From: Litchfieldia alkalitelluris
GTDB lineage: Bacteria; Bacillota; Bacilli; Bacillales; Salisediminibacteriaceae
Assembly (NCBI RefSeq): GCF_002153425.1
Contig: NZ_KZ119600.1
Span: 4,522,442 to 4,585,181, forward strand
DNA: 62,740 nucleotides
Direction: 5' to 3'
Shown here: positions 1,673 to 59,603 of the stretch, piece by piece
Position numbering within the stretch: position 1 is the stretch's first letter
Layout: each line of letters starts with the position of its first letter
The notes under the pieces: generated by a model
What the model saw: only the letters and a program-made list of their open reading frames with translations
Told to the model about the DNA's origin: nothing
Database searches by the model: none
Made by a program: the position numbers and the translations under genes

Positions 1673-2183
1673 TGCGGACATTTCATTGCTTTTCTCATCT
1701 AGTTTTGTCCGCTGAGCTAGTGCCTGCGGACATTTCATTGCTTTTCTCGTTGCGTTTTGTCCGCTGAGACTTTGGCTGCGGACATTTCATTGCTTTTCTC
1801 TTGTAGTTTTGTCCGCAAATCTAGTGCCTGCGGACATTTAACTGCTTTTCTCGTTGCGTTTTGTCCGCAGATCTAGTGCCTGTGGACATTTTGACGCTCT
1901 TCTCGTTTAGTTTTGTCCGCTGAGCCTTGGACTGCGGACATTTCGTTGCTTTTCTCTTTTAGTTTTGTCCGCTGAGACTTTGGCTGCGGACATTTCATTG
2001 CTTTTCTCGTTGCGTTTTGTCCGCAGATCTAGTGCCTGCGGACATTTAACTGCTTTTCTTGTTGCGTATTGTCCGCTGAGCCTTGGACTGCGGACATTTC
2101 AATGCTTTTATCGTCTAGTTTTGTCCACAGATCCTATTGCTGCGGACATTTTCATATTAATTCCATCAAGTTTTGTCCGCAGA
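1673..2183. repeat. tandem array 1: ten 52-bp palindromic units
   Basis: Units begin at 1673, 1725, 1777, 1829, 1881, 1933, 1985, 2037, 2089 and 2141, exactly 52 bp apart. Each carries the arm TGCGGACA and, ending 41 bp from the arm start, TGTCCGC(A/T). The inner sequence is TTTCATTGCTTTTCTC-like with variants, and linkers alternate between GAGACTTTGGC-like and GATCTAGTGCC-like forms. The array sits between the divergent nitrilase and metal ATPase genes. Short open frames across it (1965-2251) are not coding. Confidence 0.92.
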
Positions 2184-2447
2184 CGCCCCCTGAACTACAC
2201 AAACTAAAAGAGTACCACCCCTTTTTTGACCAACAAAATAAAATTAATTAATGAGGATTGACTTCCCGCCAAATTGGGTATAGATTTATAACTAACAAAT
2301 AAATAACATATGAAAATAACGTTCATCAATTTTTCATAAAATAGTTAAAGCACTATAGCTTAACTGCATATAATTTAGCAAAGCCAGGCCAAGAATTTTA
2401 AATTAAATAGTTTGAAACAAACAGATTGATCAGTCTATATGTAAGTT

Positions 2448-2484
2448 GCTGTCACCATTGGGTGGCAGCATTTTCTGCTTTTTA
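2448..2484 (+). terminator. hairpin plus T-rich tract upstream of the metal ATPase
   Basis: GCTGTCACC (2448-2456) pairs with GGTGGCAGC (2461-2469) around a 4-base loop, followed by ATTTTCTGCTTTTT. It looks like an intrinsic terminator but no gene precedes it on this strand. It may be a transcription barrier against array read-through, or an attenuator if a promoter lies near 2400. Confidence 0.5.
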
Positions 2485-2491
2485 GGGGTAA

Positions 2492-2512
2492 TGATTATGA
2501 TTCTAATTCTCA
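2492..2512 (+). promoter_or_regulatory. candidate Fur/PerR-type box before the P1B-4 ATPase
   Basis: Three adjoining heptamers TGATTAT, GATTCTA, ATTCTCA form two overlapping 7-1-7 motifs (2492-2506 and 2498-2512). Each matches the consensus TGATAAT-N-ATTATCA at 11 of 14 positions; the first also fits the PerR form TTATAAT-N-ATTATAA about equally well. The box lies 116 bp upstream of the chosen start. The related ATPase PfeT of B. subtilis is PerR controlled, which fits. Confidence 0.5.
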
Positions 2513-2627
2513 ATAAGAATGAGCAATTGCCTCTGATTAGCTAAAAAATGATTTTCTAATGTTTCACTTAAGAAAATCACCATCGAAAAAGCAGCATCAT
2601 TCAAGTTTTTCAAAAGGAGATGATCAC

Positions 2628-4619
2628 ATGGGCTTACCTAAACCTCGTACACAAGAAGCACAACAGCCTTCATCAAACAAACAAGCAAAAGCAAAAACAA
2701 ATCAGTCAACATTTATTAAATGCTGTCACGTAGCAGCGACAGGCGCATCAAAACATAGAGAACTACTCTTCGCGCTCCTTGGGGGAATATTCCTCCTTGC
2801 CGGATATATTGCAGAACAAACAGCTTTGGCAGGGAGTAGCGCCATTACACTTTACTTACTTTCGTATGCAATTGGAGGATACTACAAGACGAAGGAAGGT
2901 GTCCTCGACCTTGTGAAAGATCGCTCCTTGAATGTAGAAATATTAATGATCCTCGCTGCTATTGGCGCCGCTTATATCGGCTACTGGAACGAGGGCGCCA
3001 TTCTTATTTTCATATTTTCATTGAGTGGAGCGATGGAGACTTATACCTTCCAAAAAAGTGAGAAGGACCTGTCTGCATTGATTGAAATGGCTCCAGCAGA
3101 AGCTAACCTTATTGACGAGAAAACTGGAAACGCGAGAACCGTCCCTGTGGACACGATTGAAGTGGGGGACAGGGTGCTGATTCGTCCTGGAGAGAGAGTT
3201 CCAGTTGATGGAGTAGTAATCAATGGGGAGACGACCGTTGATGAAGCTGCCCTTACTGGAGAGGCAGTACCTGTGACGAAGACATACGATAGCCAAGTTT
3301 TTAACGGAACCATTAACGGAAAAGGTTCCATGACAGTAGAAGTGACGAAAAAGAATGCCGACTCCCTTTTTCAAAAAATGATTCAGCTCGTCCAACAGGC
3401 AAAATCCGAGCGCCCACCGACACAACTGTGGATTGAAAAAATTGAAGGCCCGTACGTCATTACGGTGTTGATGATGGTAGCCTTGATGATCGTTATTCCA
3501 TACACCTTTCTTAACTGGGGATTTGAAGAAACCTTCTATCGGGCCATGGTCCTGCTGGTTGTGGCGTCCCCGTGTGCCGTGGTGGCGTCCGTTATGCCCG
3601 CCCTCCTATCTGCCATTTCGACAGGGGCACGAAACGGCGTGCTAATGAAAGGTGGCATGTATTTGGAACAGCTATCGAAAGCGAACGCCATCGCCTTTGA
3701 TAAAACAGGAACGATCACGAAAGGTCAACCCGAAGTAACAGACTCGATCCTTACCGATAAGAGAGCATCAGACGAGATTTTTGCAGCCGTGGCAGCGGTA
3801 GAGCATCAATCAAACCACCCTTTGGCAAAAGCAATATTTAAGTTTTGCCAGAAGGAAACGGAGAAGCAGCTCCCTGAAGTACTAACAATCGAGGATGTCA
3901 CTGGGTATGGGGTTCAAGCAGAAATTGCCTCCGACAAATGGCTACTTGGAAGCATCGCCTTCATGAAGCGTTCAAATATAGTGGGATACCCGTCAGACTG
4001 GAAAGCGTGGGAGCGGAACCGCCAAGAAGAAGGAAAAACCATTGTTTACGCAGCTGTAAATGATGAAGTGGTTGGCGCTTTTGCTATTAAAGATCAAATT
4101 AGGAAAGATGCTAAAGAAACGTTGAGGGAGCTGCAGAAAGCTGGTGTGAAAACCATTATGATAACCGGTGATCATGAAGCTACGGCCGCTTCCATTGCCA
4201 AAGAAGCAGGTGTAGATGATTGGATATCCGAAAGCTTACCGGAACAAAAAGTAGAAGAAGTTGTGCGACTGAAGAAGAAGTACGGCTCTGTCATTATGGT
4301 GGGCGATGGTGTCAATGATGCCCCTGCATTGGCCAAAGCAGATATTGGGATTGCCATGGGATCTGGAACAGACGTCGCTATTGACACGGCCGACCTTGTT
4401 TTAATGAAAAGCGAGTTAGACAAAATCCGTTTGTCTTTACGATTATCAAAGCGTATGAACCGTATCGTGAAGCAAAATTTAGTTTTCTCCATGTCCGTCA
4501 TTGTCTTATTAATTATCGGTAACTTCTTTCAGCAAGTGAGCCTTCCCCTTGGCGTCATCGGACACGAAGGCAGTACTATTCTCGTTATACTAAATGGACT
4601 TAGGCTTCTAAAAACTTAA
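2628..4619 (+). CDS. pfeT: P1B-4 type metal-exporting P-type ATPase (Fe2+/Co2+ efflux, PfeT-like)
   Basis: An ATP-driven inner-membrane exporter of 663 residues. ATG at 2628 is preferred over an upstream in-frame ATG at 2559 because AAAGGAG sits just before it. Visible features: TGEA actuator motif, phosphorylated Asp358 in DKTGT, GDGVNDAP hinge, transmembrane S314-P315-C316, and HEGST starting at His646. SPC plus HEG(G/S)T defines the P1B-4 subgroup, unlike the CPC of Zn/Cd/Cu pumps. There is no N-terminal CxxC metal-binding domain, only a short Lys/Gln-rich tail with a CCH. The Fur/PerR-like box upstream points to iron efflux; cobalt or zinc remain possible. Confidence 0.85.
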   Translation: MGLPKPRTQEAQQPSSNKQAKAKTNQSTFIKCCHVAATGASKHRELLFALLGGIFLLAGYIAEQTALAGSSAITLYLLSYAIGGYYKTKEGVLDLVKDRSLNVEILMILAAIGAAYIGYWNEGAILIFIFSLSGAMETYTFQKSEKDLSALIEMAPAEANLIDEKTGNARTVPVDTIEVGDRVLIRPGERVPVDGVVINGETTVDEAALTGEAVPVTKTYDSQVFNGTINGKGSMTVEVTKKNADSLFQKMIQLVQQAKSERPPTQLWIEKIEGPYVITVLMMVALMIVIPYTFLNWGFEETFYRAMVLLVVASPCAVVASVMPALLSAISTGARNGVLMKGGMYLEQLSKANAIAFDKTGTITKGQPEVTDSILTDKRASDEIFAAVAAVEHQSNHPLAKAIFKFCQKETEKQLPEVLTIEDVTGYGVQAEIASDKWLLGSIAFMKRSNIVGYPSDWKAWERNRQEEGKTIVYAAVNDEVVGAFAIKDQIRKDAKETLRELQKAGVKTIMITGDHEATAASIAKEAGVDDWISESLPEQKVEEVVRLKKKYGSVIMVGDGVNDAPALAKADIGIAMGSGTDVAIDTADLVLMKSELDKIRLSLRLSKRMNRIVKQNLVFSMSVIVLLIIGNFFQQVSLPLGVIGHEGSTILVILNGLRLLKT

Positions 4620-4698
4620 TATGTGATGAGTGCGTGCCGTAATCCAACCGATTCAGATTCAGCTTCGTGGGTGAGTTGAATGGTCGTTCCATTCAAAA

Positions 4699-4728
4699 AA
4701 ACCGGGTATGAGCTGCCCGGTTTAATTT
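4699..4728 (+). terminator. intrinsic terminator of the metal ATPase gene
   Basis: AAACCGGG (4699-4706) pairs with CCCGGTTT (4716-4723), followed by AATTT. Confidence 0.65.
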
Positions 4729-4746
4729 AGTCAAATACTGCTGTAG

Positions 4747-4797
4747 AAAAACACATGCTATTCATTCCAACTGTGAAATGAAATCGCATGTGTTTTT
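4747..4797. repeat. inverted repeat spanning 51 bp, with a further copy of one arm
   Basis: AAAAACACATGC (4747-4758) is inverted at 4786-4797 as GCATGTGTTTTT, and the GCATGTGTTTTT arm recurs from 4810. The spacing recalls the 51/52-bp array units in this window. On the minus strand it may also serve as transcript end for the 4889-5683 gene. Confidence 0.5.
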
Positions 4798-4888
4798 CGG
4801 GTGGATATCGCATGTGTTTTTTTGCTAGAAAGCTCATGTGGTTATTCACAAAATAGCTTGTTTACAGTTCGCCAGTAAAAGCCATTAA

Positions 4889-5683
4889 TTAAGCTAGACT
4901 TGGGTTTCTTTCTGTATCCTTAATAAAGTTCTTTATGATTTGGTTTATGGCGCTTCCCTTTTTGGTTGGCGTCTGGTGGGCAACATTTCCGACTAGAATC
5001 ACTGTAACTGGACCTTGAACATATTTTTTAAAGAGATGACGATAATGATGAACATAATCGTCCCGCTCCCCATAAATAAGGGTGACTGGACAAGTTACCT
5101 TCGTTAATCGCTCAGTCGATTCATATTCAAGTCCCATACGGTAATATGCTTCTAAAATTTCTGGGTTCGATTGCTTAATGTAGGAGGAAAGCTGAAACAT
5201 TTTAATTGGATTCCACTCATGGGCACCTGCAAGGACATTGGATAGGAGACCCATCAGTTTGTTCTCCATCGCCCAAATCCCAAGCTTGAATTCGTTTCTT
5301 AAAAGAAAACTATTTACTTCTGGAAAACTTCCAAGGAGAACAATCCCTTTAATCCGCTCTGGATAGGATATCGCCAACTCTTGTACGACAGATCCTCCAT
5401 TTGAATAGCCACATGCATATGTTTTTTCAATACCACAGTTATCGAGCACTCTTATGACATCTTCTGCCACCGTCTCCATCGTTAATGGCCGCTTGTCCAT
5501 ACCACTCCGCCCATTACCCCTAAGGTCTACAGCAACTACAGTATAAAATTTCTTGAGTTCATCCTTTTGCCTTCTAAATGTTACATGCCCCATTCCTGGT
5601 GGATGCACGAAGACAATTGCAGGACCTTGGCCTTCCACTTCATAGAATATTCTTGCCTTTCCATCTTTCACTGTCCACGGCAT
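4889..5683 (-). CDS. alpha/beta hydrolase
   Basis: 264-residue alpha/beta-hydrolase fold protein without signal peptide. The oxyanion-loop motif HPPGMG follows the first strand (AIVFVHPPG), the nucleophile elbow is GYSNGG, and a late His lies in GNVAHQTPTKKG, giving a plausible Ser-Asp-His triad. The lid region near 120-190 is helical. ATG follows AAAGGTG. It seems monocistronic. Families like this include lactonases, esterases and haloperoxidase-like enzymes; the substrate is not readable. Confidence 0.85.
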   Translation of the reverse strand: MPWTVKDGKARIFYEVEGQGPAIVFVHPPGMGHVTFRRQKDELKKFYTVVAVDLRGNGRSGMDKRPLTMETVAEDVIRVLDNCGIEKTYACGYSNGGSVVQELAISYPERIKGIVLLGSFPEVNSFLLRNEFKLGIWAMENKLMGLLSNVLAGAHEWNPIKMFQLSSYIKQSNPEILEAYYRMGLEYESTERLTKVTCPVTLIYGERDDYVHHYRHLFKKYVQGPVTVILVGNVAHQTPTKKGSAINQIIKNFIKDTERNPSLA

Positions 5684-5773
5684 GCAATCACCTTTTCCGA
5701 CATAGTGTCTTACTTTACTTTATCTGTTCCCTTGTAAAGTAGTTTTTGCAGTTTGCAGTATTTCATGCCCAGC

Positions 5774-6244
5774 TTATTTAGTATAGTGTCCGATTGCGAG
5801 TGCACCATTGTCTAATAAAATCTTTTCAATCGTTTCCTTCTGTTCCAACTTGCAATTGATTGCCAGGAAAACCTCTGCCGTGTTCATGTTTAGTTTCTTT
5901 CTTTTCTTTATTCTGCGGTTCTTTATAAATTTTTCAACCAGAATTCCTGTTAAAAAGCCGATGGCCAAGCCAATTAAACCCCATATTACTGGTCCCATCG
6001 TTAACACAAACCCGTAAATCGTTCCGAGCAACATAAAGATAAGTCCTAAAAAGAAAGCATAATCTAGGCCACTTGATCCTGCAGATAAATTAACACTTTC
6101 CAACACGCGCTTTTCCTCTGACCTCCTATCAAGGGGGAGGGCTATTACCTGGTCTTGTTTAATTTCTTTCTCCTCTAGCTTTTTCAACGTTGCTTCTAAG
6201 TATGGTGAGTACTCAAAGGACGCAATAATATACACTACTATCAC
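5774..6244 (-). CDS. membrane protein with soluble ends, unknown function
   Basis: 156 residues. A soluble N-terminal part (EYSPYLEATLKKLEEKEI, helix-rich) is followed by two hydrophobic segments at about 62-105, the second opening with a Gly-rich stretch (GLIGLAIGFLTG). A basic RRIKKRKK stretch follows and then a second small soluble part (EVFLAINCKLEQKE). The flanking parts look like two halves of one alpha/beta unit, as in proteins where a glycine-rich double helix is inserted into a sensor-like domain. It starts 16 bp after the stop of the upstream membrane gene, so they are probably co-transcribed. Confidence 0.65.
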   Translation of the reverse strand: MIVVYIIASFEYSPYLEATLKKLEEKEIKQDQVIALPLDRRSEEKRVLESVNLSAGSSGLDYAFFLGLIFMLLGTIYGFVLTMGPVIWGLIGLAIGFLTGILVEKFIKNRRIKKRKKLNMNTAEVFLAINCKLEQKETIEKILLDNGALAIGHYTK

Positions 6245-6260
6245 CTAAACTTCCCTTACT

Positions 6261-7058
6261 TTATGTAAATAAGTCTTCCAAGCTTCCTTCTTGATAAGTA
6301 CTTCTAAGATGATGTATCATTTCCAATTCATACATTTTGTTATTTTCAATTGCTTTCGTATGTACGTCAAAAATTGTGAATGTATAAACAGATGGAAGAT
6401 TTAATACCCACTGTGGATCTAATATTTCCTTCGTCTTGGAAAACTCACCAATTGCACTATAGTAAACTGCCTCCATGATATTAGTAAAATATAATAGCGC
6501 TCCCCACCAAATTGCAGTAAACACAAGTGTTATAAAACGGTGAATATAGATATACAACATCGGTGGCATAATGAAAGCCCATAGCAAAGTCATCGCTGTA
6601 TTCTTTTTTCTTAAGGAATTGACTTCTAGAATCGACAAATGAAACGGATTAATATTGAACTTCTCTTTGCTTGTAATTGTGAGTTCGATATCCATATTTA
6701 ACTCAATTGCCTTTCTGTAGCTATCCCATACGGCAAATATATAAATGGGAATGTAAACAAAGAAGTATTTTAACTCAATCGCTTCTTTAGCCTCCTGAAA
6801 ATCCCCGAGCATCGAAAAATAAATTGCTGTATTTAATCCACTTAGGGTATTTATTAAAAATTCAAAAACAACAAGAATGACACCGAATAAGTGGTTTCCT
6901 AACAAGAAGTGTCCAAAACCAGGAAAGGCTAAGGACCACCAAGCTACCATTAGTGGTTTTTTATAACTTAATGAATTAGTAGCTAATGAATTAGATACAA
7001 CTATACGTCGACGGGGTTGATTCTGACCGCCATCCTTTCTGTACTTGTTTTTTTCCAT
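6261..7058 (-). CDS. polytopic membrane protein, unknown function
   Basis: 265 residues from ATG at 7058. A TTG two codons earlier is too close to the AGAGG ribosome site. After a basic 35-residue N-terminus there are four to five hydrophobic segments. Two halves look alike: each has a membrane pair followed by an amphipathic stretch and a 'D-x-Y/H-x-K-A-I-E' motif (DSYRKAIELN, DVHTKAIENN), suggesting an internal duplication. The motif AWWSLAFPGFGHFLLG resembles the start of small TM2-type membrane proteins. It forms an operon with the 5774-6244 gene. Confidence 0.65.
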   Translation of the reverse strand: MEKNKYRKDGGQNQPRRRIVVSNSLATNSLSYKKPLMVAWWSLAFPGFGHFLLGNHLFGVILVVFEFLINTLSGLNTAIYFSMLGDFQEAKEAIELKYFFVYIPIYIFAVWDSYRKAIELNMDIELTITSKEKFNINPFHLSILEVNSLRKKNTAMTLLWAFIMPPMLYIYIHRFITLVFTAIWWGALLYFTNIMEAVYYSAIGEFSKTKEILDPQWVLNLPSVYTFTIFDVHTKAIENNKMYELEMIHHLRSTYQEGSLEDLFT

Positions 7059-7084
7059 TGGCAAGACCTCTTTTAATTATCTTT

Positions 7085-7310
7085 GTTGGTATTTGTCTTA
7101 GTTGGTTTGTCGCTGGTTCGTGGCTGGTTGACTTGGTTCGTCGCTCATTCGTCTTTGTTTGACTTGTTTTGTGCGGGTTCCTCGCTAGATTGACGTTGTT
7201 TCTTCTTTAGTCTGTCTTTGATTCGATGTTGGTTTATCGTGGTTCTTCATTGGTTTGTCTTTGGTTTGTCTTTGATTCGACTCAATTTTGTCGTTGTTTC
7301 GTATAGTTTC
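7085..7310. repeat. TTGGTTYGTC-rich low-complexity tract
   Basis: About 220 bp of degenerate short direct repeats (TTGGTTTGTC, TTGGTTCGTC, TTTGATTCGA) upstream of the 6261-7058 gene. No stable frame and no fixed period were found. A shorter tract of the same style lies at 1523-1560. Confidence 0.5.
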
Positions 7311-7410
7311 CTAATATTTGTATTTTCTTCTAAAAGAATGGTAATCATTCAGTTAATTAGAAAATCCAACTTTAGACTCATATTATGTTGAGAGCTATAT
7401 GCTTAAGGAA

Positions 7411-7960
7411 TGCGGACTGAGTTTCATTCAATCTCTGTTTTCAGTCCGCATTTCCCAATATTGCGGACTGAGTTTCATTCAATCCCCGTTTTCAGTCCGC
7501 ATTTCCCATTAATGCGGACTGAGTTACCTTCAATCTCAATTTTCAGTCCGCATTTCCCATTAATGCGGACTGAGTTACCTTCAATCTCAATTTTCAGTCC
7601 GCATTTCCCAATATTGCGGACTGAGTTACCTTCAATCTCAATTTTCAGTCCGCATTTTCTAATATTGCGGACTGAATTACCATCAATCTCAATTCTCAGT
7701 CCGCATTTCCCAATATTGCGGACTGAGTTTCATTCAATCCCCGTTTTCAGTCCGCATTTCCCATTAATGCGGACTGAGTTACCTTCAATCTCAATTTTCA
7801 GTCCGCATTTCCCATTAATGCGGACTGAGTTACCTTCAATCTCAATTTTCAGTCCGCATTTTCTAATATTGCGGACTGAGTTACCATCAATCTCAATTCT
7901 CAGTCCGCATTTTCCATTAATGCGGACTGAGTTTCACAAATCTTCATTACCCAGTCCGCA
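7411..7960. repeat. tandem array 2: eleven 51-bp palindromic units
   Basis: Units start at 7411 and every 51 bp up to 7921. Each has a perfect 10-bp inverted pair TGCGGACTGA / TCAGTCCGCA spanning 40 bp, separated from the next unit by an 11-bp linker (TTTCCCATTAA or TTTCCCAATAT). The middle alternates between TTTCATTCAATCTC-like and TTACCTTCAATCTC-like forms. Because 51 is a multiple of 3, an artefactual 207-codon frame runs through the array on the plus strand. Confidence 0.93.
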
Positions 7961-7989
7961 GTTCGACAAAAAGACCGGCTTTCAATCAA

Positions 7990-8025
7990 CCAAAAAAGTC
8001 CGCAGAAATCACTATCTCTGCGGAC
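7990..8025 (-). terminator. intrinsic terminator of argS
   Basis: GTCCGCAGA (7998-8006) pairs perfectly with TCTGCGGAC (8017-8025); on the minus strand a run of six T follows. It ends the ywiB-argS transcript. The stem shares GTCCGCA with arms of arrays 1 and 2. Confidence 0.85.
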
Positions 8026-8050
8026 ATAACTAATATTTACTTATACGATA

Positions 8051-16338: not shown

Positions 16339-16632
16339 TGCTCTTATTGACAGTTTTGCAATTTCGAGCTACGAATCTGCCGTTATTACATGCTCTTATC
16401 GACTGTTTTGCGTTTCTGAGCTTCAAAACTGTCGATAACCTATCCTCTTTTCGACAGTTTTGTGTTTTCTAACATCAAAACTGTCGGTAACCCATGCTCT
16501 TACCGACAGTTTTGCGTTCCTGAGCTTCAAATCTGTCGGTATTCCTTGCTCTTTTCGACAGTTTTGCGTTTCTGAGCTTCAAAACTGTCGATAACCTATC
16601 CTCTTTTCGACAGTTTTGTGTTTTTTAGGATC
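16339..16632. repeat. tandem array 3: six 52-bp palindromic units
   Basis: Left arms (CGACAGTTTTG and variants) begin at 16348, 16400, 16452, 16504, 16556 and 16608, exactly 52 bp apart. Right arm CAAAACTGTCG ends 35 bp after the left arm start. Linker resembles ATAACCTATCCTCTTTT. The last unit loses its right arm where it runs into the ywgA terminator. The unit layout is that of array 5 (same 35+17 split, shared GCTCTTACCGAC). Confidence 0.92.
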
Positions 16633-16660
16633 AAAAAAACACCGCAAATATTGCGGTGTT
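16632..16660 (-). terminator. intrinsic terminator of ywfO-ywgA
   Basis: AACACCGCAA (16638-16647) pairs with TTGCGGTGTT (16651-16660); on the minus strand a T-run follows. It abuts array 3. Confidence 0.85.
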
Positions 16661-16688
16661 TAAAAGCAAATTCTATTTACATTGAAAT

Positions 16689-17204
16689 TCAACTAACCTG
16701 CCCTTGGGAAGACGCCTTTAGCCTATCAATAAACTGATAAGCTTCCTCGAGGTCAGTTTCCGTGTAGTTCTGCTTTGCCTTCAATGTATAGACCTTATCC
16801 GCCACTTCCTCCTTAGGAAGATCATCAAAATAAAGGATAGTCGAAACTAGCTCAAGGAATTTAGCACTTTGCTCATTGAGCTCATTTAAAATCCCCTTTT
16901 CTTCCGGCAATTCATAGTTAGATAAATTAAGGAACTCGTCCCCTTGCTCAGATAGCGTATAACGATATTGATAATACCCCGCCTTTTTCTCTCTCACTTC
17001 CTCTACAAAAGAGAGGTGGCACATCTCCTCCATGCGGAGATTTAGTTCTTCTGAGTAGGGTCCATAAAAGTGAAACTGATATTTTTCAAAAAAAGGAAAG
17101 TTCATTTTCTTCGCAATATAGATAAGCTTTTGCAGCTTTTTTCGCCCAACAATTTCCCCAGTTTGCTTAAAGACAGCTAATAGCTTAGCATGCTCGTTTA
17201 ACAT
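16689..17204 (-). CDS. ywgA: YwgA family protein
   Basis: 171 residues matching YwgA, conserved downstream of ywfO in Bacillus. Begins with a helical region holding GRKKLQKLIYIAKKMN, then FHFYGPYSEELNLRMEEM, a pattern shared with SocA/Panacea-like (DUF4065) proteins, followed by YTLSEQGDEFL (winged-helix-like) and a helical tail. Soluble; function unknown. It starts 4 bp after the ywfO stop, so one operon. Confidence 0.82.
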   Translation of the reverse strand: MLNEHAKLLAVFKQTGEIVGRKKLQKLIYIAKKMNFPFFEKYQFHFYGPYSEELNLRMEEMCHLSFVEEVREKKAGYYQYRYTLSEQGDEFLNLSNYELPEEKGILNELNEQSAKFLELVSTILYFDDLPKEEVADKVYTLKAKQNYTETDLEEAYQFIDRLKASSQGQVS

Positions 17205-24428: not shown

Positions 24429-24610
24429 GGAGAATTTCCCCTTAATTATGAAATAGCGCGAAAAATAGTCTAAATAGACGGAGAAATTCCGCTTACCCAC
24501 TCGAATCTATTTAAAAAGAGGAACTTTCCTTTGCATAGGCGTAAAAATTCCCCTTATTCCCCACGAAATAAGATAAATTATAATTTTAAACGGAAATTCT
24601 CCGCTTATTT
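24429..24610. repeat. degenerate array with 51-bp period
   Basis: GGAGAATTTCCCCTTA (24429) and GGAGAAATTCCGCTTA (24480) are 51 bp apart. Further on, AAATTCCCCTTA and AAATTCTCCGCTTA place their CTTA at 24553 and 24604, again 51 bp apart. A fifth, decayed copy lies at 24520 (GGAACTTTCC). GGAGAATTTCC and GGAAATTCTCC are inverted relatives. Confidence 0.6.
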
Positions 24611-28960: not shown

Positions 28961-29011
28961 ATTTGCTAGTGAAGAAAGCTTAAATCGGGCTTCTTGCTCT
29001 ACAAAGAAAGT

Positions 29012-29124
29012 GTAATTAACTTGGTTTAATTTACCGAAGCAGCACTTCCTCCTTCTTAAAGGGAAATTAAACTCGATTTATTTTACCGAAGCAGCGCGTA
29101 CTCCTTCTTAAAGGGAAATTAAAC
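29012..29124. repeat. small array with 52-bp period (two clear units, one decayed)
   Basis: ACCGAAGCAGC recurs at 29033 and 29085, and the arm AAATTAAAC at 29064 and 29116, both exactly 52 bp apart. In unit one GTTTAATTT (29024-29032) is the perfect inverse of AAATTAAAC (29064-29072). A decayed arm lies near 29012. Confidence 0.7.
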
Positions 29125-51431: not shown

Positions 51432-51482
51432 TCACCCTTGGTCAAAAAGCTAATTATAGCTTGTGGCCAAGGGTGATTTTTG
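51432..51482 (+). terminator. intrinsic terminator of ampS
   Basis: TCACCCTTGG pairs with CCAAGGGTGA with inner AAGCT/AGCTT; T-rich after it. Confidence 0.75.
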
Positions 51483-51606
51483 ATTTTTGCTTTTTTTGTT
51501 TTTTTGTTTTTTTGTGTTTTTAAGCATAGGGGATTTAATTAGTAAGCTCCATTTTCATTCTAACTGCGCTTGCGCGGCTTTACTTAGGGAACACTCAGTG
51601 CTGAAT

Positions 51607-52715
51607 AGTTCCCGGAGCTATTGACTCAACTTTGCTTCGGGCACTATCAACCTATATTAGTGCCCGGAACACTCCACTCAACTTCGCTCCGGGCACTATC
51701 TAACAATATTAGTGCCCGGAGCTCTCCATTCAACTTTGCTTCGGGCACTATCAACCTATATTAGTGCCCGGAGCTCTCCATCCAACTTCGCTTCGGGCAC
51801 TATCAACCTAGAATAGTGCCCAGAACACTCCATTCAACTTTGCTTCGGGCACTATCAACCTAGAATAGTGCCCGGAACACTCCATTCAACTTCGCTTCGG
51901 GCACTATCAACCTAGAATAGTGCCCGGAACACTCCATTCAACTTCGCTTCGGGCACTATCAACCTATATTAGTGCCCGGAGCTCTCCATCCAACTTCGCT
52001 TCGGGCACTATTAAACAATATTAGTGCCCGAAACACTCCACTCAACTTCGCTTCGAGCACTATCAACCTATATTAGTGCCCGGAACACTCCATTCAACTT
52101 TGCTTCGGGCACTATCTAACAATATTAGTGCCCGGAGCTTTCCATTCAACTTTGCTTCGGGCACTATCAACCTAGAATAGTGACCGAAACACTCCACTCA
52201 ACTTCGCTCCGGGCACTATCAACCTATATTAGTGCCCGGAGCTCTCCATTCAACTTTGCTTCGGGCACTATCTAACAATATTAGTGCCCGGAGCTTTCCA
52301 TTCAACTTCGCTTCGGGCACTATCAACCTATATTAGTGCCCAAAACACTCCATTCAACTTCGCTTCGGGCACTATCTAACAATATTAGTGACCGGAGCTT
52401 TCCAATCAACTTTGCTTCGGGCACTATCTAACAATATTAGTGCCCGAAACACTCCACTCAACTTTGCTTCGGGCACTATCTAACAATATTAGTGCCCGAA
52501 ACACTCCACTCAACTTCGCTTCGGGAACTATCAACCTATATTAGTGCCCGAAACACTTCACTCAACTTCGCTTCGGGCACTATCAACTTAGAATAGTGCT
52601 CGGAGCAATCGACTCAGCTTTGTTTCGGGCACTATCTAACAATATTAGTGCCCGGAGCTCTCCAATCTACTTCACTCCGAGCACTATCAACCAAAAATAA
52701 AGCTCGGAGCACACT
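51607..52715. repeat. tandem array 4: twenty-one 52-bp palindromic units plus a partial one
   Basis: Units start at 51607 and every 52 bp to 52647 without a single indel, then a decayed partial unit at 52699. Arms AGTGCCCGG(A/G) and TTCGGGCACT span 39 bp; middle AGCTCTCCATTCAACTTTGC-like; linker ATCAACCTATATT or ATCTAACAATATT, alternating. Lies between ampS and the AGCS transporter, both on the plus strand. Confidence 0.95.
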
Positions 52716-52845
52716 GAACATAACCTCCAGCGCCACTCCCACCAACCACTTCAAAAAAAATTTACATTTTCTGAGACAAAACTATTTCTATTTTTCTGAA
52801 TATTAAATATAATTTAAACAACTTATATATAAGGGGGTCTTTTTA

Positions 52846-54210: not shown

Positions 54211-54240
54211 TAGGATAAGGATAGTTTCTTCGAAAAAATC

Positions 54241-54293
54241 AAAAACGGCTGCTATAGGGGAGCAAATCAAACTTCCCTAAGCAGTCGTTTTTA
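54241..54293. terminator. bidirectional terminator
   Basis: AAAACGGCTGC with AGGGGAG pairs with TTCCCTAAGCAGTCGTTTT (imperfect), between convergent genes. Confidence 0.78.
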
Positions 54294-54989: not shown

Positions 54990-55837
54990 TACACCAACTC
55001 CTTTCCAGTAACTTTCAAGAAGATTTGACCAAGCGTCGGTTTATCAGTATGCAATGATTTTACGCGGTCATTTACAATGAGGTCTCGAATTTTATCACCA
55101 TTCTTCGCTTCATTTTCAATTATTAACTTTTTCCCATCAAAGGTTTCCACATGAAAAGCGTGGGTAGAATATTTATAACGGAGTTCCTCAGGACTGCCCA
55201 TCTCTTGCAGCTCCCCTTTATTTAAAAATGCAACACGATCACATAACAAGGTAGCTTCTTCCATATCGTGTGTGGTCAGAAAGATTGTCGTACCCGCTTC
55301 ATTCAGTTTCTGTAGGCCACGGTGGATATGCGCCATATTTCCAGGATCTAACGCAGAAGTAGGCTCATCAAGAAACACAATTTCAGGTTGATGAATCAGT
55401 GCTTTAGCAAGCAATACTCGTTGCTTCATTCCTTTTGATAACTTTGACACTATTTTTTTCCGCGCATCCACCAAATCTACTTCATGAAGTATCACATCTA
55501 TTTGTTCAAGCGGTGCATGATATAACTTACAAAACAGTTTCAAGTTATCATAGACTGTTAGACGTTCATATAACGAACTATTATCTGATAAAATTCCAAT
55601 TCTTGATCTAAAGTTAGCCCTGCTAAATTTCTGTGAATGAACATCTAGTACTTTCACGTAACCATCTTTTTGAACAAGTTCTCCTGTCAAAATTTTAATT
55701 GTCGTAGTTTTCCCAGAACCACTTGGCCCGAGAAATCCAAATATTTCACCTTTTTTCACTTGAAAGCTAATATCATTAATTACTTGATTTTGGTGAAAAG
55801 CCTTCTTTAATCCTTGTACCTCAATTGCATAATCCAA
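54989..55837 (-). CDS. ABC transporter ATP-binding protein
   Basis: 282 residues from TTG 55837 behind AAAGGAGG; a longer frame from 55870 reads through that site. Walker A GPSGSGKTT, Q-loop region, signature LSKGMKQRV, Walker B EIVFLDEPTSALD, His-switch TTHD. ABC-2 exporter ATPase of the drug/bacteriocin-type group. The substrate is unknown. Encoded with the permease and downstream of the LytTR regulator. Confidence 0.94.
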   Translation of the reverse strand: MDYAIEVQGLKKAFHQNQVINDISFQVKKGEIFGFLGPSGSGKTTTIKILTGELVQKDGYVKVLDVHSQKFSRANFRSRIGILSDNSSLYERLTVYDNLKLFCKLYHAPLEQIDVILHEVDLVDARKKIVSKLSKGMKQRVLLAKALIHQPEIVFLDEPTSALDPGNMAHIHRGLQKLNEAGTTIFLTTHDMEEATLLCDRVAFLNKGELQEMGSPEELRYKYSTHAFHVETFDGKKLIIENEAKNGDKIRDLIVNDRVKSLHTDKPTLGQIFLKVTGKELV

Positions 55838-55908
55838 TATTGAAAACCTCCTTTGATAAGCTACATTCATCGTATACTGTAACTGTTGTCTTTACAGCCA
55901 TATCAAGA

Positions 55909-55939
55909 TGAAATGTACATAAAAGAGGTTGAAGTGTAC
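55909..55939 (-). promoter_or_regulatory. candidate LytTR operator (two direct repeats)
   Basis: TGAAATGTAC (55909-55918) and TGAAGTGTAC (55930-55939) are direct repeats 21 bp apart, two helical turns, upstream of the ABC operon. LytTR proteins bind such spaced direct repeats. Confidence 0.5.
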
Positions 55940-55991
55940 CGATATAATATTCAATACGACTCATTTTTTCCCATGGCATACCGAACTGTAC

Positions 55992-56942
55992 TTATTTAAG
56001 GTTGAACATTTCTTGGATATCTTGTATTTTGGTCCGTGACAGTGGAATAGTCGATTGGACTCGATTATCAATTCTAAGGGAGTACGTGTTTTTTGACCAA
56101 GTGATGATCTCACGAACTTTTTGTAAATTTACTATGTAAGACCGGTGACACCTAAAAAACCCATAAATCTCTAACGTTTTTTCAGTTTCAGCAAGTGTAG
56201 CATCCATAGCGTAAGATGTATCATTTATAACAATCATCGATTTACCATCTTGACTTTCAATGTAATCAATTTCAAGGGGGTCAAATAATATCACTTTGTC
56301 ATCTACTTTCGCAGGAATCTTAAATAGTTTTACCGTCGATGGTGTGAAAGCTTGCCCTTCATCTATAGGCTCTGAATCACTACTCTCTACTTCGATCTCA
56401 TGAAGCCCTTTCTCATTCAGCTTATAAGCAACATTTCCTAGAAGCAGCGCGTGCTCCATATTAGAAACGAGAATAAGGGTGGGAATATTGTACTTCTTAA
56501 ATTGTTCTAACAGCGTAAGAAAAGTATTAGTCGTTTTAATATCGACACCATGTATTGGCTCCACAAAAACTTTTGGGTGAGTATTAGTCATATAGTATTT
56601 AGCGAAATACACTCTCCTTTGCTCGGATCGGGTACACTTTTTAAGAACCTTTTTTACACAAGCCTGTAAATCAAAGAGCACAAGTACCTCTGCAATTGGT
56701 ATTTTACATTCAAACCACTTATGGTAAAAAGCAATGTTATCTTCTACAGTTAATCGTTCGTATAATCCTTCCTTCATATCAAAAACTGAAATTCCACTCT
56801 CATGCATTAAGGTATTTATTAATTCTGCCTGCAATTCCATATCACTGTGTACAGCAGTAATATTGGCTTCGTCCAAGTCTAGGGTGAATTGAGGCAGGAT
56901 TTCATTTTTTTCATTTTGGTTATTTATTTTAAAACTAGTCAT
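55992..56942 (-). CDS. LytTR regulator fused to a degenerate ABC-ATPase domain
   Basis: 316 residues. Residues 1-205 resemble a shrunken ABC ATPase: GLYERLTVEDNIAFYHKWF, KKCTRSEQRRVYFAKYY, PKVFVEPIHGVD and LVSNMEHALLLG line up with SLYERLTVYDNLKLF, SKGMKQRVLLAK, PEIVFLDEPTSALD and TTHDMEEATLLCD in the neighbouring ATPase. Walker A is missing and Walker B Asp-Glu is lost. Residues 215-316 are a LytTR DNA-binding domain (IDYIESQDGKSMIVI, FFRCHRSYIVNLQKV). Probably regulates the ABC operon 150 bp downstream. Confidence 0.88.
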   Translation of the reverse strand: MTSFKINNQNEKNEILPQFTLDLDEANITAVHSDMELQAELINTLMHESGISVFDMKEGLYERLTVEDNIAFYHKWFECKIPIAEVLVLFDLQACVKKVLKKCTRSEQRRVYFAKYYMTNTHPKVFVEPIHGVDIKTTNTFLTLLEQFKKYNIPTLILVSNMEHALLLGNVAYKLNEKGLHEIEVESSDSEPIDEGQAFTPSTVKLFKIPAKVDDKVILFDPLEIDYIESQDGKSMIVINDTSYAMDATLAETEKTLEIYGFFRCHRSYIVNLQKVREIITWSKNTYSLRIDNRVQSTIPLSRTKIQDIQEMFNLK

Positions 56943-57163
56943 GTTTTAGACTCCAGTTCTCAAAGTGAAATTCACATAAGCTTATGGTTTTCATTCCTAT
57001 ACATATTTTACATACGATGTTGGAAATCCTTCTAAATGTATATGAACGCCCCTCAAAGTTGCGTACTATTAAAAATATTTCAACAATTTACTATACTAAA
57101 CTAACTTATTGACGAGTCGATATTCTATAAATATTCAAAAAATATTATAAAAACACTTTATAT

Positions 57164-57180
57164 ATGCAATTTTGTTGCAT
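57164..57180. promoter_or_regulatory. palindrome, candidate operator of the YjiH-type gene
   Basis: ATGCAA-TTTTG-TTGCAT in the AT-rich leader, 18 bp upstream of the promoter below. Confidence 0.35.
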
Positions 57181-57197
57181 AAAAATAAATTTTTATG

Positions 57198-57226
57198 TTG
57201 ATTAATTCATGATTGTGTATTAATAT
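57198..57226 (+). promoter_or_regulatory. SigA-type promoter of the YjiH-type gene
   Basis: TTGATT (57198-57203), 17 bp, TAATAT (57221-57226). Confidence 0.45.
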
Positions 57227-57271
57227 AGATTTTGTTGAATAATAATTTATTTATTTTTGGAGGAGAACACG

Positions 57272-58675
57272 TTGAGTAATAATAGCAATCATACAAATAA
57301 TAATATATCACCTAAAGCTTTTTGGAAATTTTTGATTCCATCACTGATTGGTATCGGATTGTTTATGACTCCAGTACCAGTCGATGGGGGTTTTACAATC
57401 CCTGTTGCCCTTCTTGCAAATTGGTTAAAGGATTTAGTAGGGGCATTTCTACCTGAAATTATGACCGCTATCATAACTTTAAGTTTTGTAGGTGTCGCGA
57501 TACAAAAACACGTAAAGCCAAAAGTGCTAACATCAAGCCCATTCTTTGTTAAGCTGTTTGATGTGAGTCCTTTCTGGTATGCTACCCGCCTTATTGGGAT
57601 GGTCTTAGCAATCATGACTTACTTCCAAATCGGACCAGACTATGTACACGACCCGTATACTGGTGGATTACTATTAGGGGACGGAGGACTTCTTCATACT
57701 CTATTTGCAATCTTTATTTTTGCAGGACTATTCCTACCATTATTACTTAATTTCGGTTTATTAGAATTCTTTGGTTCCATGCTTACAAAAGTGATGCGTC
57801 CTTTATTTAAACTTCCTGGACGTTCTTCAATTGATTCCCTTACTTCTTGGTTAGGGGACGGAACTCTAGGGGTTGTGTTAACTAACAAGCAATACGAAGA
57901 AGGCTATTACTCTCAGCGAGAAGCAGCTGTAATCGGTACAACATTCTCTGTTGTTTCTATTACGTTTTCTTTAGTAGTAATTGAGGAAGTTGGACTTCAA
58001 CACATGTTCCTGCCTTTCTATGCAACTATCTTATTCGCTGGTTTCGTAGCAGCAATTATTATGCCGCGAATTCCACCTTTATCTAGAAAACCGTTAACGT
58101 ATGCAAACGGACAAGAAGTAAAGCTTGATGAAACAGTACCTGCTCATGTGAAGCCTTTGAAATTTGGATTCATTAATCTTACTCCAGCAAAATGGGGATT
58201 CACAAAAGCAAAAGAGCAAGCTGATAAAAACACAAGTATTAAATCGTTTTTACAAGACGGATCTAAGAATGTTCTAGACTTATTACTAGGAGTTACTCCT
58301 GTTGTTATGGCTTTTGGTACAATTGCATTAATCATAGCTGAAAACACAAGCTTCTTTGCTTGGGTTGGTTATCCTTTTGTTCCTATTCTAGAGCTCATGC
58401 AAGTACCTGAGGCTGCTGCTGCATCTGAAACGTTAGTTGTAGGATTTGCAGACATGTTCTTACCAGCTATTTTTGCAAGTGGCATAGAAAGTGAAATGAC
58501 TCGATTCATTATCGCCTGTGTATCTGTCACACAGTTAATCTATTTATCGGAAGTTGGGGGCGTACTTCTCGGTTCCAAAATTCCGATTAACTTTAAAGAC
58601 TTAGTAATTATTTTCTTAGAAAGAACAATCATCACACTACCAATTATTGTTGTCATCGCACATTTTATATTTTAA
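57272..58675 (+). CDS. YjiH family membrane protein (nucleoside-gate domain)
   Basis: 467 residues from TTG 57272 behind GGAGGAG. About ten membrane helices; Asn/Ser-rich cytosolic start, GLFMTPVPVDGGFTIPVALL and a C-terminal half carrying 'gate' motifs (LLNFGLLEFFGSMLTKVMRPLF, SWLGDGTLGVVLTNKQYEEGYYSQREAAVIGTTFSVVS). Matches YjiH, often linked to transport of small organic ions in other bacteria; substrate here unknown. Confidence 0.88.
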   Translation: MSNNSNHTNNNISPKAFWKFLIPSLIGIGLFMTPVPVDGGFTIPVALLANWLKDLVGAFLPEIMTAIITLSFVGVAIQKHVKPKVLTSSPFFVKLFDVSPFWYATRLIGMVLAIMTYFQIGPDYVHDPYTGGLLLGDGGLLHTLFAIFIFAGLFLPLLLNFGLLEFFGSMLTKVMRPLFKLPGRSSIDSLTSWLGDGTLGVVLTNKQYEEGYYSQREAAVIGTTFSVVSITFSLVVIEEVGLQHMFLPFYATILFAGFVAAIIMPRIPPLSRKPLTYANGQEVKLDETVPAHVKPLKFGFINLTPAKWGFTKAKEQADKNTSIKSFLQDGSKNVLDLLLGVTPVVMAFGTIALIIAENTSFFAWVGYPFVPILELMQVPEAAAASETLVVGFADMFLPAIFASGIESEMTRFIIACVSVTQLIYLSEVGGVLLGSKIPINFKDLVIIFLERTIITLPIIVVIAHFIF

Positions 58676-58676
58676 G

Positions 58677-58708
58677 AAAAGTCGGGGACCTGGTCCCCGA
58701 CTTTTTTG
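58677..58708 (+). terminator. intrinsic terminator of the YjiH-type gene
   Basis: AAAAGTCGGGGACC pairs with GGTCCCCGACTTTT; near-copy at 60027-60056. Confidence 0.88.
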
Positions 58709-58731
58709 TGAACTTTAAAGAATTTGTGCTG

Positions 58732-59603
58732 GACCACGATTAAGCGGGTTCATAACGACTGTTTTCAAATTTTATCAGAGCAAACGGTCGATTAAGCGGG
58801 TTCATACCGACCGTTCAGAAGTTTTGTCAGAGCAAACGGTCGATTAAACAAGCTCTTATCGACTGTTTTCAAATTTTGTCACAGCAAACAGTCGATTAAA
58901 CAACCTCTTACCGACCGTTTTCAAATTTTTTCATAGCAAACGGTCGATTAAACAAGCTCTTACCGACTGTATTCAAATTCTGTCACAGCAAACGGTCGAT
59001 TAAACAAGCTCTTACCGACCGTTTTCAAATTTTTTCATAGCAAACGGTCGATAAAACAACCTCTTACCGACCGTTTTCAAATTTTGTCACAGCATACGGT
59101 CGATTAAACAACCTCTTATCGACTGTTTTCAAATTTTGTCATAGCAAACGGTCGATTAAACAACCTCTTACCGACTGTTTAGAAGTTTTATCAGAGCAAA
59201 CGGTCGATTAAACAACCTCTTACCGACCGTTTAGAAGTTTTGTCACAGCAAACGGTCGATAAAACAACCTCTTATCTACTGTTTTCAAATTTTGTCATAG
59301 CAAACAGTCGATAAAACAAGCTCTTATCGACCGTTTAGAAGTTTTATCAGAGCAAACGGTCGATTAAACAAGCTCTTATCGACTGTTTTCAAATTTTGTC
59401 ACAGCAAACAGTCGATAAAACAAGTTAATAACGACTGTTTAGAAGTTTTGTCACAGCAAACGGTCGATTAAACAAGCTCTTACCGACTGTTTAGAAGTTT
59501 TGTCACAGCAAACAGTCGATTAAACATGCTCTTACCGACTGTTTTCAAATTTTGTCACAGCAAACAGTCGATTAAACAAGTTAATAACGACCGTTTAGAA
59601 GCT
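58732..59603. repeat. tandem array 5: about seventeen 52-bp palindromic units
   Basis: Right arms AAC(G/A)GTCG recur every 52 bp (58784 to 59564 in exact register). Left arm CGAC(C/T)GTT and right arm enclose TTCAAATTTTGTCACAGCA or TAGAAGTTTTGTCACAGCA; linker ATTAAACAAGCTCTTAC-like. Sixteen units have both arms; the last has lost its right arm. Layout as in array 3. Confidence 0.94.

Follow-up and report, generated by a model that had tools for sequence, protein, structure and literature searches.

Intergenic tandem arrays of unlike sequence share a unit of 51 or 52 bp in a Bacillales genome

Tandem repeats in bacteria are usually treated as by-products of slippage or as typing markers, whose units vary freely. 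Among the described systems closest to the arrays investigated in this study are the RacA motifs of Bacillus subtilis, centromere-like inverted repeats found at several origin-proximal sites in Bacillaceae, and plasmid iterons, which are direct repeats of about 20-22 bp or two turns. The BIME-2 and tandem REP elements of enterobacteria are intergenic, tandemly arranged and equipped with palindromic arms in alternating orientation, all of which also applies here. Of 58 segments from 200 kb of E. coli that served as control, two were periodic, with lags of 101 and 113; these are presumably BIMEs, whereas the unit described here is fixed at 51/52. E. coli BIMEs are bound by gyrase, according to the available part of PMC6379681. 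Further topological proteins are also partners of these elements. A GTAG or CGTC tag characterises REPs, with a RAYT partner for the GTAG type, as described in the accessible text of PMC3733652, in contrast to the many unlike words of the present arrays, which no RAYT-type gene adjoins. Noncoding bacterial satellites similarly form intergenic tandem arrays, those of one family being dispersed over the genome, and the portion of PMC6749651 at hand gives families of 37, 46 and 69 nt in Leptospira interrogans, Bacillus families with units of 36-45 nt, all multiples of three, and a table of long-repeat families with no bacterial unit of 51/52 and one of 51 from an archaeon; unlike our observations, that portion reports no common pitch of unrelated families. 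Finally, eukaryotic satellites set by the nucleosome turn over fast between species at a length near the footprint of the bound protein (compare PMC8122249), whereas the units found here, with 51/52 bp, are not nucleosomal, their arrays are short (up to about 1.8 kb) and dispersed, and their protein is putative. In the literature searched, we have found no earlier description of such arrays.

The features of the window, the whole stretch of 62,740 nucleotides that was analysed, are as follows, with copy numbers marked TRF taken from Tandem Repeats Finder:

1672..2191, + strand: array 1, family F1, 52-bp unit in about 10 copies, arms TGCGGACA/TGTCCGC(A/T)
7409..7960, + strand: array 2, family F2, 51-bp unit in 10.3 copies (TRF), arms AATGCGGACTGA/TCAGTCCGCATT
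7998..8025, - strand: terminator-like hairpin between argS and array 2, by pattern match
16339..16632, + strand: array 3, family F3, 52-bp unit in 5.5 copies, arms (TAT)CGACAGTTTTG/CAAAACTGTCG
16637..16661, - strand: terminator-like hairpin between the gene at 16689-17204 and array 3, by pattern match
24433..24556, + strand: decayed motif series, motif at 24433, 24484 and 24545, steps of 51 then 61 bp
29007..29124, + strand: short array, 52-bp unit in 2.3 copies (TRF), autocorrelation z of 8.9 at lag 52
51612..52715, + strand: array 4, family F4, 52-bp unit in 20.5 copies (TRF, 51626-52692), arms TAGTGCCCGGA/TTCGGGCACTA
58752..59603, + strand: array 5, 52-bp unit in 15.9 copies (TRF, 58756-59580), arms CGAC(C/T)GTTT/AAAC(G/A)GTCG

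The five large arrays, with units of 52, 51, 52, 52 and 52 bp in register and inverted arms in each, were thus recovered by Tandem Repeats Finder where an earlier note on this DNA had placed them. That note had also described two decayed arrays, at 24429 and 29012, as keeping the same step, which is true of the latter and not of the former, whose spacings change and whose signal at lag 52 is weak (z 1.6). Where it had described arm sequences that differ between most arrays, the five arrays make up four families, the units of arrays 3 and 5 (16339 and 58756) being united by single-linkage BLAST, and arrays 1 and 2 have the word TGCGGAC in common in their arms, which is thereby common to families F1 and F2. 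By eye, the short array at 29007-29124 is similar to family F8. Array 2 lies directly on the downstream side of argS, and the stem of the hairpin between them includes GTCCGCA, the core word of families F1 and F2. In E. tamaricis, the gap equivalent to the site of array 3 is occupied by a 52-bp array that differs in sequence. The word TGCCCGAA is common to the units of F4 and F8 and to the E. tamaricis array.

The pitch of these arrays extends beyond the window. In 842,740 bases, which combine a systematic sample of this Evansella-like genome with the window, itself picked for its arrays, 34 of the 37 arrays with at least three copies have a unit of 51 or 52 bp, the others having periods of 18, 18 and 31, and arrays of 51/52 bp account for 24,459 of 24,724 repeat bases or about 2.9% of the sample (24,459/842,740). 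The sharp peak at 51-52 that the earlier note had anticipated for a genome-wide survey is hence evident in this sample. Autocorrelation of noncoding DNA revealed 48 periodic segments in the genome, 39 of them with a top lag of 51, 52, 102 or 104 and the remaining nine with lags of 21, 30, 45, 57, 93, 99 and 126. Chance is ruled out as the source of the common period in the window and the sampled genome. The values 51 and 52 are separate, one being fixed in each family. Repeats outside this rule are found in a wider set, among them an array with a period of 43 bp (L200) and others next to transposase genes with periods of 91 and 101 bp. With noncoding copies arranged head to tail, the arrays correspond to intergenic satellites or minisatellites, and an open frame is kept throughout in 3 of 34.

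Single-linkage BLAST of units assigned the 36 arrays of this pitch with a length of at least 150 bp to ten families with no linkage between them at 1e-3, each with one period (seven at 52, three at 51), and 24 of the arrays belong to the four largest clusters. Within the sampled arrays of the genome, 447 of the 460 intervals show exact spacing between units, so the proposed lack of indels holds for nearly all of them and is violated in 13, of which seven are off by one, two by -2 and four by +4 to +8. The same arrays contain 1,943 substitutions in 441 units (4.4 per unit), a contrast between indels and substitutions that was measured on arrays alone, without a matched neutral control from the genome. 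Together with the equal pitch of unlike families and of other genera, this makes a constraint on length well supported.

Outside this genome the pitch recurs in sparser form. Of 117 loci outside Evansella, 10 contain arrays of at least three copies at 51/52 and with unlike units; these come from Alkalihalobacterium, Rossellomorea, Peribacillus, Mesobacillus, Gracilibacillus, Paraliobacillus, Lysinibacillus, two 'Bacillus sp.' and one further genome. The other 107 loci contain none, from which it follows that the arrays are not needed everywhere, and none was seen in a small sample of Paenibacillus-type loci. Spacing outside this genome, congeners included, is exact in 139 of 154 intervals, and 14 of the other 15 are off by one. 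A search of eight congeners with units of F1, F3 and F4 gave no match at E <= 0.001, which for these three families implies that sequence turns over while the pitch stays. Among 966 noncoding segments from 120 loci of other Bacillota, 36 are periodic, with top lags at 20-21 (9), 40-42 (8), 51-52 (12), 102-104 (2) and other values (5). Their distribution suggests helical quantisation, as 27 of the 36 deviate by no more than 1.5 bp from a multiple of 10.4 bp, a period that was fitted on the very lags tested and whose support becomes weaker with one vote per distinct lag (R 0.63, p about 0.004). They also reveal a second class of repeats near 20.5 bp, whose spacing wanders between 19 and 21 within one array. 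With direct cores and variable linkers at 20/21 bp, this class has an iteron-like geometry; it differs from iterons in being dispersed in chromosomal contigs.

These data bear on a neutral account in which all families are minisatellites descended from one ancestral 52-bp array, whose length was rarely altered by concerted evolution. The short words in common (TGCGGAC and TGCCCGAA) and the concentration of arrays in four clusters would fit such descent, which is nevertheless hard to reconcile with ten families unlinked by BLAST, with unlike units of equal length in other genera and with the lack of F1, F3 and F4 in congeners. We consider it very unlikely, and a length that outlasts the whole sequence during descent would itself amount to a length constraint.

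Besides length, it is the arms that are preserved. They are less divergent than the remainder of the unit in 31 of the 32 arrays with at least five units and a stem (4 of the 36 being left out), with means of 0.038 and 0.121, respectively. In the window, the corresponding values are 0.016 and 0.175 for array 1, 0.021 and 0.107 for array 2, 0.093 and 0.173 for array 3, 0.018 and 0.138 for array 4, and 0.017 and 0.124 for array 5. A significant palindrome, as in REP/BIME elements, is present in 33 of 38 arrays of the genome on the basis of TRF consensus units, compared to 7 of 21 arrays of 51/52 pitch outside it, congeners included; with units cut at a fixed step, where arrays bearing indels lose register, the numbers are 29 of 36 and 7 of 24. 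Palindromes are thus strong here and weak in other genomes, indicating that the pitch is not determined by the hairpin. This weakens the previous idea of a replicating hairpin of fixed size, as does the location of putative hairpin transposase genes, which are not beside the arrays. The matched arm spacing that had been expected across arrays is not observed. Arm-to-arm distances vary by family. Among 23 arrays in which an exact 7-base pair exists, the smaller spacing is 20 in seven, 14 in five, 24 in four and another value in seven, and a pattern of two plus three turns perceived by eye failed an automatic test. A CRISPR array was rejected as a candidate, since the whole unit of 51/52 bp repeats, with a divergence of only 0.121 outside the arms and no non-repeated spacers; no cas gene is found among the annotated part of the window genes.

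The distribution of arrays on the chromosome, with origin and terminus placed by GC skew only and the respective loci tallied by hand, is uneven. Arrays were found in 17 of 20 sampled 20-kb loci on the origin side compared to 4 of 20 near the terminus, and 51 of 61 family loci reside in the origin half. In one congener (G002), the values are 5 of 15 and 1 of 15, with periods of 51, 52, 102-104 and 156. The 11 loci of F1 in the genome have a single orientation relative to the fork (11/11) and orientation is fork-linked in 19 of 25 cases for F3, with no such link for F4 (10 vs 15). In 29 of 36 arrays, the strand rich in purines is the leading one. The origin-proximal bias, the inverted repeats, the several sites and the occurrence in Bacillaceae resemble the RacA motifs. 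The profile NF009646 of RacA, a candidate reader of the arrays, has no match in this genome at E <= 0.001, although it is a weak detector, whose matches in the B. subtilis control and in six of nine genomes of the genus all fall below the curated cut-off. The flanks of the arrays have no common sequence except for one pair (L111/L120, 82% over 307 bp), other flank matches resembling decayed repeat units or, for L134, whose array begins at the locus edge, a slip in coordinates. An origin from mobile elements was not favoured, array 4 being unmatched in a plasmid collection and one long F3 array in a phage collection, and neither was a seeding of arrays by terminator hairpins, a proposal based on the word GTCCGCA that the argS terminator has in common with array 2, where the flank test is confounded by decayed units and neighbouring arrays.

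The link to replication invites an explanation in which the pitch reflects a copying machine rather than selection. A recombination, repair or replication process of Bacillales would make or enlarge tandem duplications of about 52 bp, and also of about 20.5 bp, assisted by hairpins that are not required. The common pitch of unlike units, including those without a significant palindrome, would be expected from such a ruler, and the orientation of F1 and F3, the purines on the leading strand and the excess near the origin imply that the arrays feel replication. The purine skew may, however, merely track the strand bias of the genome, the orientation of F4 is independent of the fork, the variation by one around 20.5 within one array of the 20-21 class looks like tolerance instead of the copying of a fixed piece, and the conservation of arms above linkers is not predicted by pure copying. 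We thus regard this explanation as possible, though on balance unlikely.

A different aspect of location concerns the adjacent genes, which were assigned with a home-made dicodon gene model for 31 of the 36 arrays, five at locus edges being left out. One or both neighbours have their 3' end towards the array in 30 of 31 cases, and gaps between divergent genes hold arrays in 1 of 31 cases compared to 78 of 463 gaps overall (p 0.04). Arrays located 3' of genes could be where DNA gyrase, a different topoisomerase or a bending protein docks to handle transcription-driven supercoils. Gyrase is general in bacteria, in contrast to 51/52 arrays, which are missing from most sampled loci. The accessible text of PMC6379681 offers points on either side, as it describes an enrichment of gyrase sites in E. 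coli BIME-2 elements, a motif with flanks of 10.75-bp periodicity and pieces of 35-52 bp, cited as DNA wrapped on the C-terminal domains of GyrA, whereas the same motif is called degenerate, at odds with the strong conservation of arms within each array. We consider this assignment distinctly improbable, although it constitutes a special case of the protein platform discussed below, in which the protein is named.

Two further proposals concern the palindromes. In the first, the arrays are REP/REPIN elements moved by RAYT-type Y1 transposases, where tandem growth would proceed by a hairpin-recognising enzyme on lagging-strand DNA. Y1_Tnp is matched 3 to 9 times in each of nine genomes of the genus, the arrays are palindromic here (33/38), the orientation of F1 and F3 follows the fork, and a 52-bp array is located about 3.6 kb from such genes in 2 of 15 stretches of relatives (L230, L234). 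Yet around the four genes in this genome that are labelled RAYT-like by their length, the 16-kb stretches contain no 51/52 array within about 7.6 kb of the gene, and the arrays found within about 400 bp of the gene in 3 of the 15 stretches have periods of 91, 101 and 101, suggesting that the enzyme's own substrates belong to another class. RAYT/REP elements are thus disfavoured as direct source, and we assign this proposal hardly any probability. The second proposal places the function in RNA, with transcribed arrays forming strings of hairpins for termination, as RNase barrier or as small RNAs. Although it would account for conserved stems and for a position on the downstream side of genes, G-T mismatches are not preferred to A-C mismatches on any consistent strand (153 GT and 111 AC on the + strand), compensatory changes are few, with at most two pairs per array, Rfam has zero matches in the window, and a terminator-like hairpin separates the gene from the array in two cases. 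The arrays themselves do not resemble terminators with a GC stem and a T run, the interior of array 5 containing four weak 5-pair matches only. The helically quantised pitch points to duplex DNA, and an RNA-level role appears highly improbable.

Collectively, the arrays constitute a class of intergenic satellites that populate this genome densely and occur at scattered places in other Bacillales, with a unit of five turns (51 or 52 bp). We tentatively favour, while holding it to be somewhat short of probable, that these fast-evolving satellites keep to five helical turns because they serve a putative protein as a repetitive platform of duplex DNA. Each unit would offer a site in the same rotational position as its neighbours', and adjacent proteins might touch or jointly bend the DNA. 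Unequal recombination or slippage would lengthen and shorten the arrays, thereby homogenising them and allowing the sequence to change but not the length, which purifying selection would preserve because of the rotational position of the sites. The role would likely be architectural or topological, to hold, bend or relax DNA between transcription units, and would involve neither coding, RNA nor adaptive memory. The suggestion in the earlier note that all units expose the same helix face finds indirect support in the lags on multiples of 10.4 bp and is limited by a drift of about 34 degrees per unit between families of 51 and 52 bp, which precludes a single face along the whole array for both. 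Moreover, phase alone would also permit 21, 42 and 62 bp and the arrays with at least three copies found here are nearly all of five turns, so something else must pick five. A/T tracts within units show weak phasing (mean z 1.0, with 7 of 36 above 2), and intrinsic curvature, likewise weak, was rejected.

A broader reading, which we regard as conceivable but rather doubtful, is that of a satellite-based chromosome-organising system of Bacillales, composed of dispersed, origin-biased and fast-evolving arrays, where the helically set pitch would be the sole conserved property and reader proteins would change their sequence taste between species. Such a reading takes in both pitches, five turns and the two turns of the sister class. 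If true, it would provide a bacterial parallel of eukaryotic satellites, where a chromatin protein sets length and not sequence. The pitch common to unlike families suggests a cellular factor that gauges the repeats or takes hold of them. A reader protein, if real, would be a new nucleoid organiser and copying by a ruler, if real, a new mutation process, and the arrays thus pose the testable physical question of how a living bacterium gauges a length of five DNA turns.

The description of the window (G000:C1:4522442-4585181 in a genome of 4.88 Mb) as holding five large arrays with units of 52, 51, 52, 52 and 52 bp and a decayed array on the same step near 29012 is borne out by Tandem Repeats Finder.

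Tandem arrays of the window (start, feature, period; Tandem Repeats Finder)
1672, array 1, period 52 bp
7409, array 2, period 51 bp
16339, array 3, period 52 bp
29007, short array of 2.3 copies, period 52 bp
51626, array 4, period 52 bp
58756, array 5, period 52 bp

A second decayed array, placed by the earlier note on the common step near 24429, did not hold up, as the motif near 24433 has spacings of 51 and 61 bp. The ArgS of the window is closest to that of Evansella tamaricis (86% identity) and also to those of other Evansella, and YwhD, an M29 peptidase and AgcS among its genes are consistent with Bacillaceae. Array 2 is adjoined by a 31-bp array of 3.2 copies (7102-7201), equivalent to about three helical turns, and a 171-aa protein at 16689-17204 weakly resembles the profile of DarG, a DNA ADP-ribosyl glycohydrolase, with an E of 4e-6 that leaves it far short of the cut-off.

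The 51/52-bp pitch is a genome-wide rule in this organism. A sample of 842,740 bases, comprising the window and 40 evenly stepped stretches of 20 kb minus one stretch falling inside the window, contains 37 arrays of at least three copies (26 at 52 bp, 8 at 51, 2 at 18 and 1 at 31), 34 of which form the sharp peak expected from a genome-wide repeat scan. When all score-passing arrays of the 40 stretches alone are considered, 38 of 58 have a period of 51 or 52 bp, accounting for 22,980 of 26,210 repeat bases, and the remaining 20 are scattered over periods from 18 to 477 bp. By autocorrelation, the top lag is 51, 52, 102 or 104 in 39 of 48 periodic noncoding segments, with lags of 21 (2), 30, 45, 57, 93, 99 and 126 (2) in the other nine.

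Single-linkage BLAST of units divides the 36 arrays that measure 150 bp or more into 10 families (with 10, 6, 5, 3, 3, 3, 2, 2, 1 and 1 members), each with a single period, which is 52 bp in seven families and 51 bp in three. The window arrays at 16339 and 58756 belong to one family. Intervals between successive anchor words are exact multiples of the array's own period in 447 of 460 cases, the 13 others deviating by -2 (2), -1 (4), +1 (3), +4 (2), +6 (1) and +8 (1); the proposed absence of indels is nearly borne out. Across the 441 units of these sampled arrays there are 1,943 substitutions, or 4.4 per unit. Length is better conserved than sequence, a strong contrast, though one uncalibrated by a neutral ratio of indels to substitutions from this genome. 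The large window arrays stay in register at a fixed step for up to 1.1 kb. The only clear shared flank is found in two 51-bp arrays of one family (L111:4315 and L120:18482, in sampled stretches of the genome), whose left flanks are 82% alike over 307 bp. Long open frames inside arrays are taken for genes by a gene finder (L149:14821-16587, 588 aa; L144:8895-9887, 330 aa; L147:10640-11248, 202 aa; L120:18483-19055, 190 aa) and may give rise to spurious repeat proteins in annotations.

In 33 of the genome's 38 arrays, the inverted arms of the units make a statistically significant stem. Once 4 of 36 arrays are dropped, the 32 that have a stem and at least five units can be compared, and arms diverge less than the rest of the unit in 31 of them (means 0.038 versus 0.121), with L135:13459 as the sole exception. 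Arm-to-arm distances vary between families, contrary to the anticipated matched arm spacing. Mismatch asymmetry and compensatory changes gave no sign of an RNA constraint, because few arm changes are compensated and the balance of G-T and A-C mismatches does not favour the same strand throughout. In E. tamaricis (L031:2516-3628), inspection by eye reveals mosaic units, in which identical arms enclose by turns inner segments that differ in sequence but not in length, so that units with different loops still measure 52 bp.

The pitch extends past the species and past the palindrome. In genomes other than the home genome, those of congeners among them, 139 of 154 intervals are exact and 14 of the remaining 15 miss by one, and the palindrome is significant in just 7 of 21 arrays, which argues against the replicating hairpin of fixed size that had been offered as an explanation. 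It is the length in helical turns that is constant, rather than sequence or hairpin. Our search covered the regions around argS in 80 Bacillota and, for 40 genomes of the order, a single 20-kb stretch per genome, or 117 loci after leaving out three of Evansella. Since 51/52-bp arrays with three or more copies occur in just 10 of these (L035, Alkalihalobacterium; L062 and L063, Bacillus sp.; L066, Rossellomorea; L069, Peribacillus; L073, Mesobacillus; L076, Gracilibacillus; L078, Paraliobacillus; L101, Lysinibacillus; L183), the class is much sparser outside Evansella than in the home genome. Shorter arrays of 2.2 to 2.7 copies are found in L061 (Lederbergia), L080, L180, L181 and L217. A scan for the strongest repeat lag in 966 noncoding segments of 120 loci returned 36 periodic segments with top lags of 20-21 (9), 40-42 (8), 51-52 (12), 102-104 (2) and five others (16, 71, 86, 92, 126), where some lags divisible by three may reflect missed coding repeats. 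Of the 36 top lags, 27 differ by no more than 1.5 bp from a multiple of 10.4, a period that was itself fitted to these lags. Arrays of the 20-21 class repeat a core word every 19-21 bp, with spacings mixed within a single array, or at 40-42, 60-63 and 80-82 bp where copies have decayed. Exceptions to the pitch are a 43-bp array (L200) and 91- and 101-bp arrays near Y1 transposase genes. Identical treatment of E. coli (58 segments, 200 kb) yielded lags of 101 and 113 only, and Tandem Repeats Finder also detected short arrays there, with periods of 33 and 30 bp.

Array families turn over between species. A BLAST search with three of the ten families (F1, F3 and F4, those of arrays 1, 3 and 4, with 11, 25 and 25 loci at home) against eight congeners, one 76% complete, gave no match at E <= 0.001, and the congeners carry 51/52-bp arrays of their own. 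One corresponding gap, judged from order and length of neighbouring genes, holds F3 in the home genome and a 52-bp array of other units in E. tamaricis, with no array seen in the matching gap of E. vedderi. Across genera, the gap 3' of argS is a hot spot for arrays that share helical spacing but not sequence: it is periodic in 8 of 53 cases, compared to 20 of the 626 gaps elsewhere in these loci (p 7e-4), with one lag a multiple of 52 (104) and the others 20, 21, 40, 42 or 102. Arrays occupy this gap in L035, L038, L043, L051, L070, L076, L087, L093, the window (7065-8050) and L173. The core word GTCCGCA of array 2 also occurs in the stem of the adjacent argS terminator (window 7998-8025), possibly as the seed of the array or by chance.

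Arrays with both neighbours visible lie in 21 co-oriented, 9 convergent and 1 divergent gaps, compared to 310, 75 and 78 of all 463 gaps (divergent 1/31 versus 78/463, p 0.04), array 1 being the sole divergent case. Arrays are present in 17 of the 20 sampled loci of the origin half and in 4 of the 20 of the terminus half (p 9e-5), and F1, F3 and F4 together place 51 of 61 loci in the origin half and 10 in the terminus half. The terminus-proximal half of the genome shows a strong shortage of arrays. The congener G002 points in the same direction in small numbers (5/15 versus 1/15, counting periods of 51, 52, 102-104 and 156). In 29 of 36 arrays the leading strand is the one rich in purines, and this holds for the four arrays flanked on both sides by genes that run the opposite way (window 51626 and 58756, L150, L138). 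One orientation relative to the fork prevails in F1 (11/11) and F3 (19/25), and F4 shows no fork-linked orientation (10 versus 15). The origin bias and the orientation of F1 and F3 would suit the main rival explanation, a copying process whose built-in ruler sets the pitch, which would not, however, account for the conservation of the arms.

Y1 transposases match in 9/9 genomes of the genus, with 3 to 9 per genome; REP/RAYT systems are the subject of PMC3733652. The four genes of the home genome labelled as RAYT by their length have no 51/52-bp array within about 7.6 kb. Among 15 stretches around such genes in relatives, three contain an array within about 400 bp (periods 91, 101, 101) and two a 52-bp array about 3.6 kb from the gene. 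The 91-bp arrays with AACCCGGGTT hairpins constitute a second repeat class (L227:9148-10651 in G002; L154:17390-17955; G002 near 3.1, 3.76 and 3.95 Mb); one adjoins a Y1 transposase gene, as do 101-bp arrays in L231 and L235. The profile of RacA matches nothing in the home genome, G002 or G007; its hits in the six other genomes of the genus, in B. subtilis and elsewhere all fall below cut-off, which makes it a weak detector. No Rfam family matched in the window, and single arrays, array 4 against a plasmid collection and an F3 array against a phage collection, gave no match.

Among the open-access papers that literature searches brought up, none mentions in its title or abstract opening a 51/52-bp or helically quantised intergenic repeat class in Bacillaceae. 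In the table of long-repeat families of a survey of satellites across 119 bacterial genomes (PMC6749651), bacterial families with units of 51 or 52 bp are absent, and one archaeal family has a unit of 51 bp. We favour the arrays as a protein-binding platform, since conserved core words at a constant rotational setting and free linkers fit an ordered string of DNA-bound proteins, which would require such a duplex. The platform would be sited where promoters and transcripts stay undisturbed and would serve an architectural or topological role, for which the analogy with BIME-2 (PMC6379681) makes gyrase a candidate reader.
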